Origin: Lacihabitans soyangensis
GTDB taxonomy: Bacteria > Bacteroidota > Bacteroidia > Cytophagales > Spirosomataceae
Direction of reading: 5' to 3'
NCBI RefSeq assembly: GCF_024343775.1
Contig: NZ_RJUF01000181.1
Coordinates: 1-64,000, forward strand
Length of the DNA stretch: 64,000 nt
Both the position numbers and the translations under genes were made by a program. Below, piece by piece: positions 16,247 through 44,859 of the stretch. Under the pieces are notes generated by a model that worked only from the letters and a program-made list of their open reading frames with translations, made no database searches and was not told where the DNA came from. Position 1 is the first letter of the stretch. Each line of letters begins with the position of its first letter.

Positions 16247-16456
16247 CTATGCCTTTTTTTTAATTTCTTTGATATACAATTGCTCCACTTTTGTTCTGGC
16301 CCACGGTGTTTTTCGGAGAAATGTCAAGCTCGATTTTACGCTTGCATCAAATTTGAAACAGTTGACTTTTACTTCTGCGTACATGGCTTCCCAGCCAAGG
16401 TTTTCTATCAAATAGATTAAAATTTTTTCGAGCGTGACGCCGTGTAATGGATCCAT
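16247..16456 (-). CDS. VF530 (DUF2132) family protein
   Basis: This 69-residue basic protein opens with MDPLHGVTLEKIL and contains LGWEAMYAEVKVNCF and SSLTFLRKTPWARTKVE, the signature of the VF530/DUF2132 family. Members are small helical proteins proposed to bind DNA on structural grounds; their role is not established. It is the third gene of the operon, with its start codon directly abutting the stop of the DUF3307 gene. The neighbouring SatD-like regulator and DUF3307 protein are its likely functional partners. Confidence 0.82.
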   Translation of the reverse strand: MDPLHGVTLEKILIYLIENLGWEAMYAEVKVNCFKFDASVKSSLTFLRKTPWARTKVEQLYIKEIKKKA

Positions 16457-17161
16457 TTATATCAATTTTAAAAGTTTTTGATAACCTAAGGCAATTCCAA
16501 TCGCTATTCCGAAGCTCAATAGTGTACCTATCAGTATATATTCTGTTAGCCTAACTTCATGGCTTTTGGTCAAGTCTCCAAACCTAAAAACAGACTTGGC
16601 AGCCAATAAAAAACCTACGCCTTCCCAATGGTTCAAAACGATAAATACAAAAACCAGAATCCGCTCCATCATTCCGATGTATTTACCTGCTGCGTTGGTG
16701 GTTTCGTTTTCTTGTTTCCATTTAGAAATCAATATCTTTATAACCACAGAGGCTACGTAGCTTATTGATATAAAAGCTATTAATAGTAATAATACTTTTG
16801 CCTTAAATGCCTGAGAAAAGTCAACTTGGAAAGAGAAATATAGCTTGGTTATTAAAAATATTACGAAGAAATGTAAGGCTTGGTCTATAAAAAACAATAT
16901 TCTTGTCTCTATTTTCTTTCTCAAAAGAAGCTTTCCCAAATCAATCACATAATGTGAAATCGGAATTAAAATCAATGCCGCCCAATATTTAAAGTCGAAC
17001 GCTAAAACCAACAAAAGCAATACAAAATGTATCAATACATGAAAATAGAGATACTTCGACCTGTACGTTTTACGATTTTTGTGCTCAATCCATTTGTCTG
17101 GTTGCAACATAAAATCTCCTAAAAGATGTGCGAGAGTGAGTTTTAATACCCAAGCTATCAT
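16457..17161 (-). CDS. DUF3307 integral membrane protein
   Basis: This 234-residue membrane protein has about six hydrophobic segments. The N-terminal LTLAHLLGDFMLQPDKW and the later HVLIHF and ISHYVIDLGKL carry the conserved histidines and aspartates of DUF3307. Those His and Asp residues lie at the ends of membrane segments and could bind a metal, but the function is unknown. It overlaps the upstream SatD-like gene by four bases (ATGA) and abuts VF530. DUF3307 and SatD genes are often paired in genomes, which suggests one system. Confidence 0.85.
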   Translation of the reverse strand: MIAWVLKLTLAHLLGDFMLQPDKWIEHKNRKTYRSKYLYFHVLIHFVLLLLVLAFDFKYWAALILIPISHYVIDLGKLLLRKKIETRILFFIDQALHFFVIFLITKLYFSFQVDFSQAFKAKVLLLLIAFISISYVASVVIKILISKWKQENETTNAAGKYIGMMERILVFVFIVLNHWEGVGFLLAAKSVFRFGDLTKSHEVRLTEYILIGTLLSFGIAIGIALGYQKLLKLI

Positions 17162-17760
17162 AATTCATTGATTTTGAGTTTATAATAATCCATAAGTTTA
17201 TGAAGCTCGTCGTAGCCGCCTCTTTTCAATCCCTCACTTATAGTTCCTTGGGCCGTTTTGTTTAGCATATTAGCCAACTCTTTTTGATTGGCCGTCGGGT
17301 TTTCAATTTTGAGTTTGATCAATTTAGCAGCGGTTTCCGTCCACCTATCTATGGTAAGCGAGGCCAACTCTATCATTAAATTCAGTGTGGCGTTCAAGTC
17401 CTTATTGGGTGTTTTTATTGCCAGTGTTTGTTTTTTTAGCTCCTCAAAGCATTCGCCCGAGTTCAAAAAAGCAGTGCCGTTGGATTCCGTAATTTTGGCG
17501 GCTGGATAGGTGATTTCTCCCAGGCCGATTCCTATCCTAACGTCCAAGTCTTTCCATTGTTTTATCTCTGCTTTTATTAGAAGTGCCGCCATGAGGGCGT
17601 CTTCAGGCTTGGTATTTAGCTGAAAACTATCACCCCTGAATATCTCCCAATTCTTTGGCTCCTTACCGTACTTTTTGAGCACTTTTTTCAAGGCTGGCAT
17701 CCATTCATTGGGCTCTACCTGCCTTGAGTTTATCAAGTCTCCTGTTATTATTGCTTCCAT
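17158..17760 (-). CDS. SatD-family protein: cyclase-like domain plus helix-turn-helix
   Basis: This is a 200-residue protein of the SatD family. What I see is GDLINSR at residues 7-13, RGDSF at 42-46, a helix, RIGIGLGEI at 75-83 and FLNSGECFEEL at 98-108. That order matches class III nucleotide cyclases (metal Asp, GD motif, RIGI-x-GE, then the N of the NxAxRLE motif). Residues 153-182 (NPTANQKELANMLNKTAQGT and onward) form a helix-turn-helix. I infer a nucleotide-sensing or degenerate cyclase domain that controls DNA binding. It heads the operon with DUF3307 and VF530. A full-consensus promoter lies 18-48 bases upstream, with four palindromes beyond it. Catalytic activity is unproven. Confidence 0.8.
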   Translation of the reverse strand: MEAIITGDLINSRQVEPNEWMPALKKVLKKYGKEPKNWEIFRGDSFQLNTKPEDALMAALLIKAEIKQWKDLDVRIGIGLGEITYPAAKITESNGTAFLNSGECFEELKKQTLAIKTPNKDLNATLNLMIELASLTIDRWTETAAKLIKLKIENPTANQKELANMLNKTAQGTISEGLKRGGYDELHKLMDYYKLKINEL

Positions 17761-17777
17761 AATATTTGAAAAACATC

Positions 17778-17808
17778 CAAATATAATACCAGAAAGCTTA
17801 TTTTCAAA
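17778..17808 (-). promoter_or_regulatory. Full-consensus promoter of the satD-like operon
   Basis: On the minus strand TTTG (17808-17805) and TATATTTG (17785-17778) are separated by exactly 19 bp, an exact match to the Bacteroidota primary-sigma consensus. Transcription should begin about ten bases before the ATG at 17760. Confidence 0.8.
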
Positions 17809-17810
17809 AA

Positions 17811-17916
17811 ATATCGGCTAATTAGCAGATATTTTAAATTATCGGTCAATAAGCCGATATTCTTCATTATCGGCTTTTAAGCAGATATTTGTCATTATCG
17901 GCTCTAGAACCGATAT
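17811..17916. promoter_or_regulatory. Array of four 22-bp palindromes at exact 28-bp spacing
   Basis: Near-perfect palindromes of the form TATCGGCT-N4-AGCCGATA lie at 17811-17832, 17839-17860, 17867-17888 and 17895-17916. Their centres are 28 bp apart each time. Each keeps ATCGG on the left and GAT on the right, with one or two changes. The first begins three bases upstream of the -35-equivalent TTTG of the satD-like promoter; the last is about 85 bp before the helicase -7 box. Such an array is an operator cluster for a dimeric regulator; the SatD-like protein with its helix-turn-helix is the obvious candidate. Confidence 0.85.
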
Positions 17917-41871: not shown

Positions 41872-44859
41872 ATGAAAAGAATAACCATTTTGTTGGCGTT
41901 ATCGCTGTGCTCATTTTTATCAGATCAAAAAGAACCACTTTCAGCCGAAGATTATGCTAAATTGACGGACTCTGAAAAAAGAAGTGTCGAACATGCACTT
42001 GACGGCATAGAATTATTCGATCCTGAGCTCGAAATCACCCTTTTTGCTTCGGAACCCATGATGACCAACCCTACTAATATGGACATTGACGCCAAGGGAA
42101 GAGTCTGGATATGTGAAGCTTACAACTATAGGAACACCCTGAACCCAAGAAATCCTTACAATGCCAAAGGTGATAGGATTTTGATTATGGAAGATACTGA
42201 CAAGGACGGAAAAGCCGACAAATCTAAAGTATTCTATCAAGGAGAAGACATTAATGCGGCACTCGGAATTGCTGTTTTAGGAAACAAAATTTATGTTTCT
42301 TGTAGCCCAAATGTATTTGTCTTCACAGACGAAAATGGGGACGACATTCCAGATAAAAAAGAAATTCTATTCTCGGGCATTGGCGGTTTACAGCACGACC
42401 ATGGAATGCACGCTTTTGTTTTTGGACCTGACGGAAAACTTTACTTTAACTTTGGAAACTCAGGAAATACGCTTATTTCTAAAGAGGGAAAGGCTTTTCT
42501 TGACGATAAAAAACAAGTTATAACGGGAGATGGGAAACCTTACCGAGAGGGTATGGTGTTCAGATCCGACGAAGATGGCACCAACCTTGAACCATTGGCT
42601 TGGAATTTTAGAAATAATTATGAACTCGCCTTGGATAGCTATGGTAAAATGTGGCAATCGGATAACGATGATGACGGAAACCGAAGCACAAGGATTAACT
42701 ACGTCATGGATTATGGCAACTACGGCTTCAAAGACGAAATGACTGGAGCCGACTGGCGTGTTAGAAGGACCAACATGGAAGATTCGGTTTATAAAAAACA
42801 CTGGCACCTCAATGATCCTGGTGTAGTACCAAATTTGCTCCAGACTTATGCTGGTTCCCCAACGGGTATTATTTTTTATGAAGGCTCACTCCTACCTGCC
42901 AAATACCAAAATCAAATTATTCACTGCGATGCTGGGCCAAATATAGTTCGTGCCTACCCAACTGTTAAAAATGGTGCGGGATTCTCGGCTTCTGTCTTAA
43001 ACATTTTAGACGGTTCTAAAAGAGATAAATGGTTCCGTCCATCGGATATTACAGTGGCTCCAGACGGTTCTTTGTTTGTGTCTGACTGGTACGATCCAGG
43101 TGTTGGTGGACACGCCATGGGCGATTCTCTCAGAGGTAGAATTTATAGAATAGCTCCTAAAGGCGTAAAATACAAAACACCAACTTACGACTATTCTACG
43201 GCCTCAGGAGCAGCTCAAGCACTTCAAAGCCCCAATCAAGCCGTTCGATACCTAGCTTTCAATTCTTTAAAAAATATGGGTTCAAAGGCCGAAAGTTCGC
43301 TTAAAGAGTTAATACAATCAGGAAAACCGAATATGGCCGCTCGTGCGTATTGGCTTTTGGCAGAACAAAATAGTCTTTGGGTAAATCATGCCGCTGAAAG
43401 TCCAAACGAGGATTTAAGAGTTTTATCTGTCAGAATGGCCAGACAATACTTTAAGAACCCTTACGAGTTTTTGAAAGAAATGTCAGCCGATCCATCCATA
43501 CAGGTTCGTAGAGAGATTGCCTTGGCTTTGAGACATAAAAACTACGCCGATATTTGGGCAAAATTGGCTTCGGATTACAAAGGAAATGACCGTTGGTTTT
43601 TAGAGGCCCTTGGTATAGCCGCAAATCAAGACTGGGATAATTCGCTTGAACTTCTTCGGGCCAAAGAAGGTCAAAATTGGCTGCAAAAGCCTCATGTAAA
43701 GGAGTTGATTTGGAGAAGTAGAGGTGCCAAAACTATGGAATACCTCTCAGAAATCATTCAAAATGAACCTCTCGAATCAAAATGGAAATACTACCGAGCC
43801 TTTGATTTCCAAAAAGGAGCTAATAAAAATGATGTTCTTTTTGGTTTAATAAAGAAATCCAAATCTGACGTAGAGAAAGTAACAATTTTTAAACTTTTGG
43901 ACCAAACCACTATCCAGAACAATGCAAGCTTTAAAGTAGAATTTCCAAAGCTTTTGGCTGGAATAAAAAATGACCTTGATTTTATTGACTTAGTTGACAA
44001 ATTTAATGTTAAAACCCAATTTGCCCGTTTGCATAATTTGACTTTGAATTCTACCGATAGGCAGGTAGCGTCCGAAGCTGGAAGGGTAAATGTCAAATTA
44101 CACGGAGTAAAAGGCTTATTATTAGAGCTGACCAATCCAAAAAATGCTAAAAATGCCATTGACAAGTATGGTAATGTGGACAATGTGACCATTGCCAAGG
44201 AATTGGTAAAAATTTACGGAAATCCTAAATACAAAGAGGAATTACGATTGTTAGCCCTCAACGAAATGGGTGGCTGGGAATCAGAGGAAGTGCTTTGGGA
44301 GCAATTTAAATCAAAAAAAATACCCGCAGAATATGTAGAGACAGCTTTGAATATTTTGAAACGGACTTGGCATGGAGATATAAGAAACGAAGTGAACAAA
44401 ATTATAGCTACTTCCGGAGGTCAAACCATCAATATTGATAATATTTTGAAGTCGGGCGGAGACCAAGCGGCTGGTAAGGAAGTTTTCGAAACCTATTGTA
44501 TTACTTGTCATGTCGCCAAAAACTCAGGGATTGATTTTGGTCCATCTCTCTCTTTAATTGGTAATAAACTCAGCAAACAAGGACTCTTAAATGCCGTCAT
44601 AAACCCAAGTGAGGGTATTGGTTTTGGTTATGAAACCCAACAAATAACCATGAAAAATGGAGATGTTATACAGGCAATTGTAACCTCAAAAACAGAAATA
44701 GACCTCATTGTGAAATATCCAGGAAGTGCAAGCATAAATATTCTGAAACTTAAGGATGTTTCTAAAATTGAACAAAAAGCTGAATCTCTTATGCCAAAAT
44801 TTGCCCTTAATGAATCCGAATTGAGAAATTTAGTCACCTACATGGAAACTTTAAAATAG
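41872..44859 (+). CDS. PVC-type dehydrogenase with C-terminal cytochrome c
   Basis: This 995-residue exported protein has a signal sequence at about 1-18. A PVC-type sugar-dehydrogenase propeller follows (about 50-430: VWICEAYNYRNT, GMHAFVFGPDGKLYF, FVSDWYDPGVGGHAMG), then HEAT-like repeats (about 450-840). The cytochrome c domain at about 855-995 binds haem through CITCH at 876-880, with M974 as a likely axial ligand. It would oxidise a sugar or alcohol in the periplasm and hand electrons to haem. It is related to the 1214-residue protein at 9632, which ends in a copper domain instead. It follows the NlpC gene by 49 bases. Confidence 0.88.
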   Translation: MKRITILLALSLCSFLSDQKEPLSAEDYAKLTDSEKRSVEHALDGIELFDPELEITLFASEPMMTNPTNMDIDAKGRVWICEAYNYRNTLNPRNPYNAKGDRILIMEDTDKDGKADKSKVFYQGEDINAALGIAVLGNKIYVSCSPNVFVFTDENGDDIPDKKEILFSGIGGLQHDHGMHAFVFGPDGKLYFNFGNSGNTLISKEGKAFLDDKKQVITGDGKPYREGMVFRSDEDGTNLEPLAWNFRNNYELALDSYGKMWQSDNDDDGNRSTRINYVMDYGNYGFKDEMTGADWRVRRTNMEDSVYKKHWHLNDPGVVPNLLQTYAGSPTGIIFYEGSLLPAKYQNQIIHCDAGPNIVRAYPTVKNGAGFSASVLNILDGSKRDKWFRPSDITVAPDGSLFVSDWYDPGVGGHAMGDSLRGRIYRIAPKGVKYKTPTYDYSTASGAAQALQSPNQAVRYLAFNSLKNMGSKAESSLKELIQSGKPNMAARAYWLLAEQNSLWVNHAAESPNEDLRVLSVRMARQYFKNPYEFLKEMSADPSIQVRREIALALRHKNYADIWAKLASDYKGNDRWFLEALGIAANQDWDNSLELLRAKEGQNWLQKPHVKELIWRSRGAKTMEYLSEIIQNEPLESKWKYYRAFDFQKGANKNDVLFGLIKKSKSDVEKVTIFKLLDQTTIQNNASFKVEFPKLLAGIKNDLDFIDLVDKFNVKTQFARLHNLTLNSTDRQVASEAGRVNVKLHGVKGLLLELTNPKNAKNAIDKYGNVDNVTIAKELVKIYGNPKYKEELRLLALNEMGGWESEEVLWEQFKSKKIPAEYVETALNILKRTWHGDIRNEVNKIIATSGGQTINIDNILKSGGDQAAGKEVFETYCITCHVAKNSGIDFGPSLSLIGNKLSKQGLLNAVINPSEGIGFGYETQQITMKNGDVIQAIVTSKTEIDLIVKYPGSASINILKLKDVSKIEQKAESLMPKFALNESELRNLVTYMETLK

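Follow-up and report, generated by a model that had tools for sequence, protein, structure and literature searches.

The satD-DUF3307 locus and its palindromes

The window, that is, the whole 64,000-nucleotide stretch of Lacihabitans soyangensis DNA analysed here (contig NZ_RJUF01000181.1, positions 1 to 64,000), carries a satD-like gene and a DUF3307 membrane-protein-like gene in one operon and, divergently oriented beside satD, a gene for a superfamily-1 type helicase. The satD-like protein passes the Pfam SatD model (PF16264) with 38.3 bits against a curated cut-off of 29, and is a member of this family, which is named after the secretion and acid tolerance gene satD of Streptococcus mutans. 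Pfam also confirmed the helicase. An array of four palindromes sits between the start codons of satD and the helicase gene, so its placement between the two divergent units in the initial annotation holds with the genes as assigned by Pfam (Table 1).

DUF3307 lies after satD in 208 of the 215 satD loci compared below, and it is likely the output of the operon. Invariant His and Asp residues were found across 30 DUF3307 sequences. The model of the window protein (pLDDT 91.4) gave no match in the PDB at E ≤0.001, the best E-value being 2.1. Outside Pfam, a single match fell below E 0.001, the PHROG family "membrane protein" (5.8e-14); another PHROG, annotated as function unknown, followed at 0.0016. 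PADLOC returned no match for either of the window's two proteins, SatD and DUF3307. At two loci (L081 and L091), the gene after satD is about 105 codons long and on visual inspection looks similar to the C-terminal half of the window DUF3307 protein. A VF530-family gene (16247-16456) follows DUF3307 in the window; such a gene was seen in 6 of the 215 loci, many of which end too near to tell.

The palindromes are of the type TATCGGCT-N4-AGCCGATA and were searched as TATCGG-N8-CCGATA. At up to two mismatches, the window contains five matches, namely one at 43275 and the four array sites at 17812, 17840, 17868 and 17896, whose start-to-start spacings of 28, 28 and 28 bp reproduce the exact period first described. 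Shuffled windows contained on average 0.81 matches and at most 4, and none of the 100 shuffles reached five. In an agnostic scan for arrays of any palindrome at any period from 21 to 60, the satD upstream region scored 18.2, compared with no more than 8.8 among 60 shuffles. The regularity is thus beyond chance, as had been judged from the letters. The symmetric unit is 20 bp rather than the 22 bp initially given, the outermost pair being missing from some copies.

On the minus strand, the satD promoter consists of a TTTG element, which we take to be of the Bacteroidota promoter type, and TATATTTG, separated by N19. A gap of three bases (17809-17811) lies between TTTG and the first palindrome, precisely as proposed in the initial annotation; the array therefore abuts the promoter without covering it. 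The same TTTG/array layout is present in loci L016-L019.

Table 1. Positions of the genes, codons, promoter elements and palindromes discussed in the text (window coordinates).
Feature	Coordinates	Strand	Remark
DUF3307 membrane-protein-like gene	16457..17161	-	Second in operon, overlaps the satD end; Pfam, 105.4 bits
satD-like gene, 200 aa	17158..17760	-	Cyclase/palm-like N-terminal domain and C-terminal helix-turn-helix, from Pfam, model and fold search
Codon of Glu176, recognition helix	17233..17235	-	Tracks half-site base 4
Codon of Thr173, recognition helix	17242..17244	-	Tracks half-site base 5
Codon of Asp44	17629..17631	-	D in 214/215; aligned with a conserved Ma1120 aspartate
Codon of Asp8	17737..17739	-	D in 212/215; aligned with a conserved Ma1120 aspartate
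TATATTTG, -7 type promoter element of satD	17778..17785	-	N19 from TTTG
TTTG, -33 type promoter element of satD	17805..17808	-	3 bases from palindrome 1
Operator palindrome 1 (nearest satD)	17812..17831	.	One mismatch
Operator palindrome 2	17840..17859	.	Exact
Operator palindrome 3	17868..17887	.	One mismatch
Operator palindrome 4	17896..17915	.	Exact

Recurrence of the array upstream of satD

The presence of satD is patchy, with matches in 53 of 200 genomes of the family and 79 of 395 genomes of the phylum; in two Lacihabitans relatives, SatD is 92% and 91% identical. We took all 53 family matches and 85 of the 87 phylum matches, leaving out the window's own repeat and a partial match of genome G399. 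L071, which has a truncated frame, was dropped before the counts, and L154 and L155 were dropped as duplicates of L018 and L019. A Fusobacterium record (L251) with no annotated genes and an unclear start was also dropped; its period of 32 was reached by 8 of 200 shuffles. Eighty further named loci were chosen by SatD similarity alone, two of them repeating loci already counted. Among the resulting 215 loci, one record is counted twice (L141 and L156), in neither case with an array.

The TAT-type and odd/even detectors were written after inspecting the sequences; the scan began with an even-palindrome detector. With this first detector, 81 of the 137 loci scored above every one of 60 shuffles, with a best period of 28 in 21 loci, 29 in 58 and another value in 2; the remaining 56 loci gave mixed periods (28 or 29 in 22). 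In the named set, 44 of the 80 loci beat all shuffles, 39 of these at period 28, and an array score of at least 11 was reached by 38 of the 80 upstream regions as opposed to 1 of 1324 control pieces from the same loci. At least two TAT...ATA sites spaced 27-30 bp apart were found in 161 of the 215 loci and at least three TAT-type sites in 132, of which 81 have period 28 and 51 period 29. At any other period from 20 to 60, no more than five loci had at least three such sites, and the shuffle sets gave 0.2 each. These period counts, together with the window shuffles and the agnostic score, rule out chance repeats. The 54 loci without a pair of TAT...ATA sites at 27-30 bp comprise 21 whose arrays, of a different sequence, have a period of 28 or 29 bp and beat 30 shuffles, 5 with an array at another period and 28 with none. 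The search of relatives suggested in the initial annotation thus recovered the architecture upstream of SatD-family genes, with different palindrome letters, and orthologous loci lacking palindromes, which had been named as refuting evidence, are not the rule: with all detectors considered, 28 of 215 satD loci are left without a convincing array.

A promoter of the strict type was recognisable in 43 of the 132 loci with at least three sites. In 39 of these 43 loci, the -33 element falls 0-4 bp past one of the array's site positions, counted modulo the period. Array and promoter overlap in 25 of the 43, and in 17, the window included, the array ends just upstream of the promoter; the one other locus (L024) has its recognised promoter on the upstream side of the array.

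Beyond the phylum, satD genes were found on plasmids of three haloarchaea, Sphingomonas, Agrobacterium, Vibrio lentus, E. coli and Enterobacter. The search matched 19 plasmid records, of which we examined 10; the other 9 are Agrobacterium and Klebsiella records. In these proteobacterial and haloarchaeal plasmid loci, the best period was 28 or 29 in eight of eight. Six of the eight beat all 100 shuffles, and for L246 and L249 the score was reached by 2 of 100. Two of the archaeal SatD proteins are 94.5% identical, so the eight loci amount to about seven independent cases. The arrays of the two enterobacterial loci (L249 and L250) depend on odd-length palindromes, which were allowed only after these loci had been seen; the first, even-palindrome detector gave no period of 28 or 29 for them. 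On the Halorientalis and Haloplanus plasmids (L242 and L243), DUF3307 lies directly after satD, and palindromes 29 bp apart lie upstream. The E. coli plasmid pEC34A (NC_019077.1, L249) is a mobilizable plasmid of 3770 bp that carries the satD-like and DUF3307 genes next to rop, mobA and one small hypothetical gene, an arrangement that makes the pair look like plasmid cargo; Klebsiella plasmids equal in size to pEC34A also gave satD matches. Phage records searched with an archaeal SatD gave no match, and viral contigs searched with the SatD alignment gave 23 pattern matches, none of them a relative.

Within the genus, 5 of 10 genomes match the window half-site type. Three genomes without a satD match have no array, and the other two have satD with other half-sites, so that arrays are confined to genomes carrying satD; a reversed control pattern gave one match in the genus, in genome G061. 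The window's own genome contains two-site arrays of this type at two places only, the window array and positions 12703-12750 of contig C46. The latter (L241) consists of two exact palindromes with a 28-bp spacing, ahead of a lipoprotein-like frame; the contig also holds a long tape-measure-like frame, both labels being by-eye readings. SatD may have a second target here, or the sites may be a decoy on a prophage. A large regulon of single sites was rejected, given this scarcity of two-site arrays and, for one palindrome at up to two mismatches, 208 places per strand in the own genome versus 320 for the reversed control.

SatD fold and recognition-helix co-variation

The AlphaFold model of SatD has a pLDDT of 96.6. 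Based on Foldseek, the best E-values belong to Cas10 subunits (Csm/Cmr2; 4.1e-4), which have a palm-type fold in common with SatD but superimpose loosely, with an rmsd of 12-15 A. Superposition is better with class III cyclases, such as Ma1120 (E 0.0017, TM-score 0.55 by target length, 4.3 A), and the first match of an N-terminal-domain profile was likewise this Mycobacterium avium cyclase (E 0.0021). SatD has the cyclase-like fold and both aspartates, D8 and D44, whose Ma1120 counterparts are presumably the metal-binding pair of class III cyclases; it differs from these enzymes by its fused helix-turn-helix. The two SatD residues that a manual alignment, carried past the profile match, sets against the cyclase transition-state Asn and Arg (99 and 103) are variable. 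A classical cyclase activity of SatD is therefore doubtful, and its N-terminal domain could possibly serve in nucleotide or metal sensing or in another chemistry.

The half-sites vary by clade and include TATCGG, TATCTG, TATCGT, TATAAG, TATTAG, TATGCA and TATATG, among others. Considering the N-terminal-domain tree of 116 SatD proteins less than 90% identical, all with at least three sites, the period changes 2 times, base 4 changes 26 times and residue 176 changes 31 times. The period is thus nearly constant, and half-site changes are frequent and parallel those of SatD. We ranked every alignment column by its association with bases 4-6 after removal of overall N-terminal similarity, and residue 176 came first (partial r 0.548), followed by residue 173 (0.256) and residue 134 (0.218). 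All 12 best columns beat 300 permutations, so it is the ranking, not the permutation, that singles out residues 176 and 173. In the AlphaFold model, these two residues lie one turn apart in the helix spanning residues 171-180.

Glu176 occurs with C4 (TATC) in 42 of 43 cases, Gln176 with A4 or T4 (TATA or TATT) in 51 of 52 and Asp176 with C4 in 2 of 2; the exceptions are L023 (Gln176 with C4) and L179 (Glu176 with A4). With Ala, Lys or Asn at this residue, base 4 is not fixed. Among the Glu176 proteins, counted with kinship ignored, Asn173 accompanies T5 in 18 of 18 and Ser or Thr173 accompanies G5 in 20 of 22. Independent pairs on the best tree gave, for Glu/Asp and C4, 11 concordant, 1 discordant and 4 unchanged (p 0.006) and, for Gln and A5, 3 concordant, 1 discordant and 2 unchanged among 6 pairs (p 0.63); supported branches alone leave 3 and 2 pairs, too few for such tests. 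The association between residue 176 and base 4 was reached by none of 10000 permutations among 39 proteins less than 70% identical, and it was weaker among 20 proteins less than 50% identical, where 182 of 10000 permutations reached it. At 60-70% N-terminal identity, bases 4-6 are the same in 2% of 390 pairs differing at residue 176, compared with 45% of 265 pairs in which this residue is equal. In our view, the co-variation strongly, although not conclusively, indicates that the array is read by SatD itself.

Proposed regulation and alternative explanations

SatD very probably binds the array and regulates its own satD-DUF3307 operon, as judged from the recognition-helix co-variation and from the confinement of arrays to satD carriers within the genus; the initial reading of the palindromes as an operator array for a palindrome-binding regulator is thereby supported. 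In its full form, we consider it likely that the array is the operator of this operon, bound by SatD itself as dimers in contact with one another and usually mediating autorepression. A SatD dimer would read each palindrome through its C-terminal helix-turn-helix, in which residue 176 would mainly determine half-site base 4, and residue 173 base 5. Contact between neighbouring dimers would fix their spacing at 28 bp (29 bp in other clades) and make binding cooperative. Because 28 bp corresponds to approximately 8/3 helical turns, the dimers would follow one another round the DNA instead of lining up on one face. Autorepression would probably be the usual outcome, and a nucleotide or metal acting at the N-terminal domain (D8 and D44) would tune it. 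The array, its period, the co-variation, the operon, the promoter phase and the fold similarity are established by comparison of sequences and models, and from the conserved period we infer that binding is cooperative.

A first alternative concerns the sign of the regulation. SatD bound to the array might contact RNA polymerase from upstream and so activate its own operon, or switch its effect with a ligand, and the end of the array just upstream of the -33 element in the window and in 16 further loci of the 43 is activator-like; the window layout by itself fits either sign. The overlap of array and promoter in 25 of the 43 loci, however, suggests autorepression. Additionally, satD of Streptococcus pyogenes is reported to be essential in transposon screens, yet 178 of 249 genomes have it (PMC11323703). 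An accessory gene that is nonetheless essential is what would be expected of a repressor or antitoxin whose loss frees something harmful, and we therefore regard activation as rather unlikely. The binder itself could also be another DNA-binding protein encoded elsewhere, with SatD co-varying through shared lineage. Kinship does explain part of any such association, and many SatD columns correlate with the half-site. Nevertheless, the two best columns of all lie in the recognition helix, one turn apart, relatives differing at residue 176 nearly always differ in bases 4-6, and the array accompanies satD on plasmids of other phyla and of archaea, all of which makes a separate binder very improbable.

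The position of the array between two start codons leaves the divergent helicase gene as a candidate target, alone or together with satD, and a TATCTTTG-like sequence ahead of the helicase start is kept in L016-L020. These five loci are, however, the only ones of the 215 in which the helicase adjoins satD, whereas TAT-type arrays occur in 161 and keep a constant phase with the satD promoter. The suggestion that the array controls both units therefore fails as a conserved feature, and the helicase was rejected as a conserved target; inside the Lacihabitans genus, the array may control it, and as a general account of the array we hold this explanation to be improbable. Short regular palindromes are also known from REP-like elements, terminators and CRISPR-like elements. 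A mobile or structural repeat of this sort, serving no regulator, would hardly be limited to two-site arrays at just two places in its own genome, nor would it keep a constant phase relative to a promoter and vary together with a DNA-binding protein, and we consider it extremely unlikely.

Binding of the array by SatD would give a testable function, that of a regulator binding its own operator, to a family known by an acid-tolerance name, and it links this function to a cyclase/Cas10-like domain. The available parts of two reports (PMC10326533, PMC11323703) mention SatD by name or for acid tolerance only and do not present it as a DNA-binding regulator. Our literature search, which covered few subscription papers, found no description of DNA binding by SatD or of this array; this is weak evidence of novelty. 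A fixed pitch combined with a changing operator sequence would indicate that the geometry of a protein assembly has lasted longer than its specificity for DNA, and more than 100 natural protein-operator pairs with two readable specificity residues offer a good model of how a regulator/operator code changes.

Among known systems, autoregulated toxin-antitoxin operons consist of two genes, with the first product binding DNA and repressing its own promoter. The satD-DUF3307 pair is likewise a two-gene operon with a predicted DNA-binding product and a putative operator at its promoter. A weaker fold match of SatD is OptS, the minimal CRISPR polymerase of Panoptes (E 0.027). According to the Panoptes paper, that system is also a two-gene operon with a membrane protein; neither SatD nor DUF3307 is mentioned in it. 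The Panoptes partner is a membrane effector that binds cyclic nucleotides, and the best PDB match of the DUF3307 model has an E-value of 2.1. The Panoptes mCpol is a stand-alone domain, from which SatD differs by its C-terminal helix-turn-helix and its operator array. As a tentative and at present doubtful extension, SatD-DUF3307 might be a mobile guard or toxin-antitoxin-like module, made up of two genes and shared by bacteria and archaea, in which a Cas10/cyclase-like palm-HTH protein would polymerise at a 28-29 bp pitch on its own promoter and restrain a harmful membrane partner until a nucleotide signal changes, with operator and recognition helix drifting together into a private code for each lineage.

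NanR of E. coli, which we take to belong to another protein family than SatD, has a repeated operator like the SatD array, with a different geometry. According to the NanR report, several repressor dimers assemble on its repeated (GGTATA)3 operator (PMC8012715).
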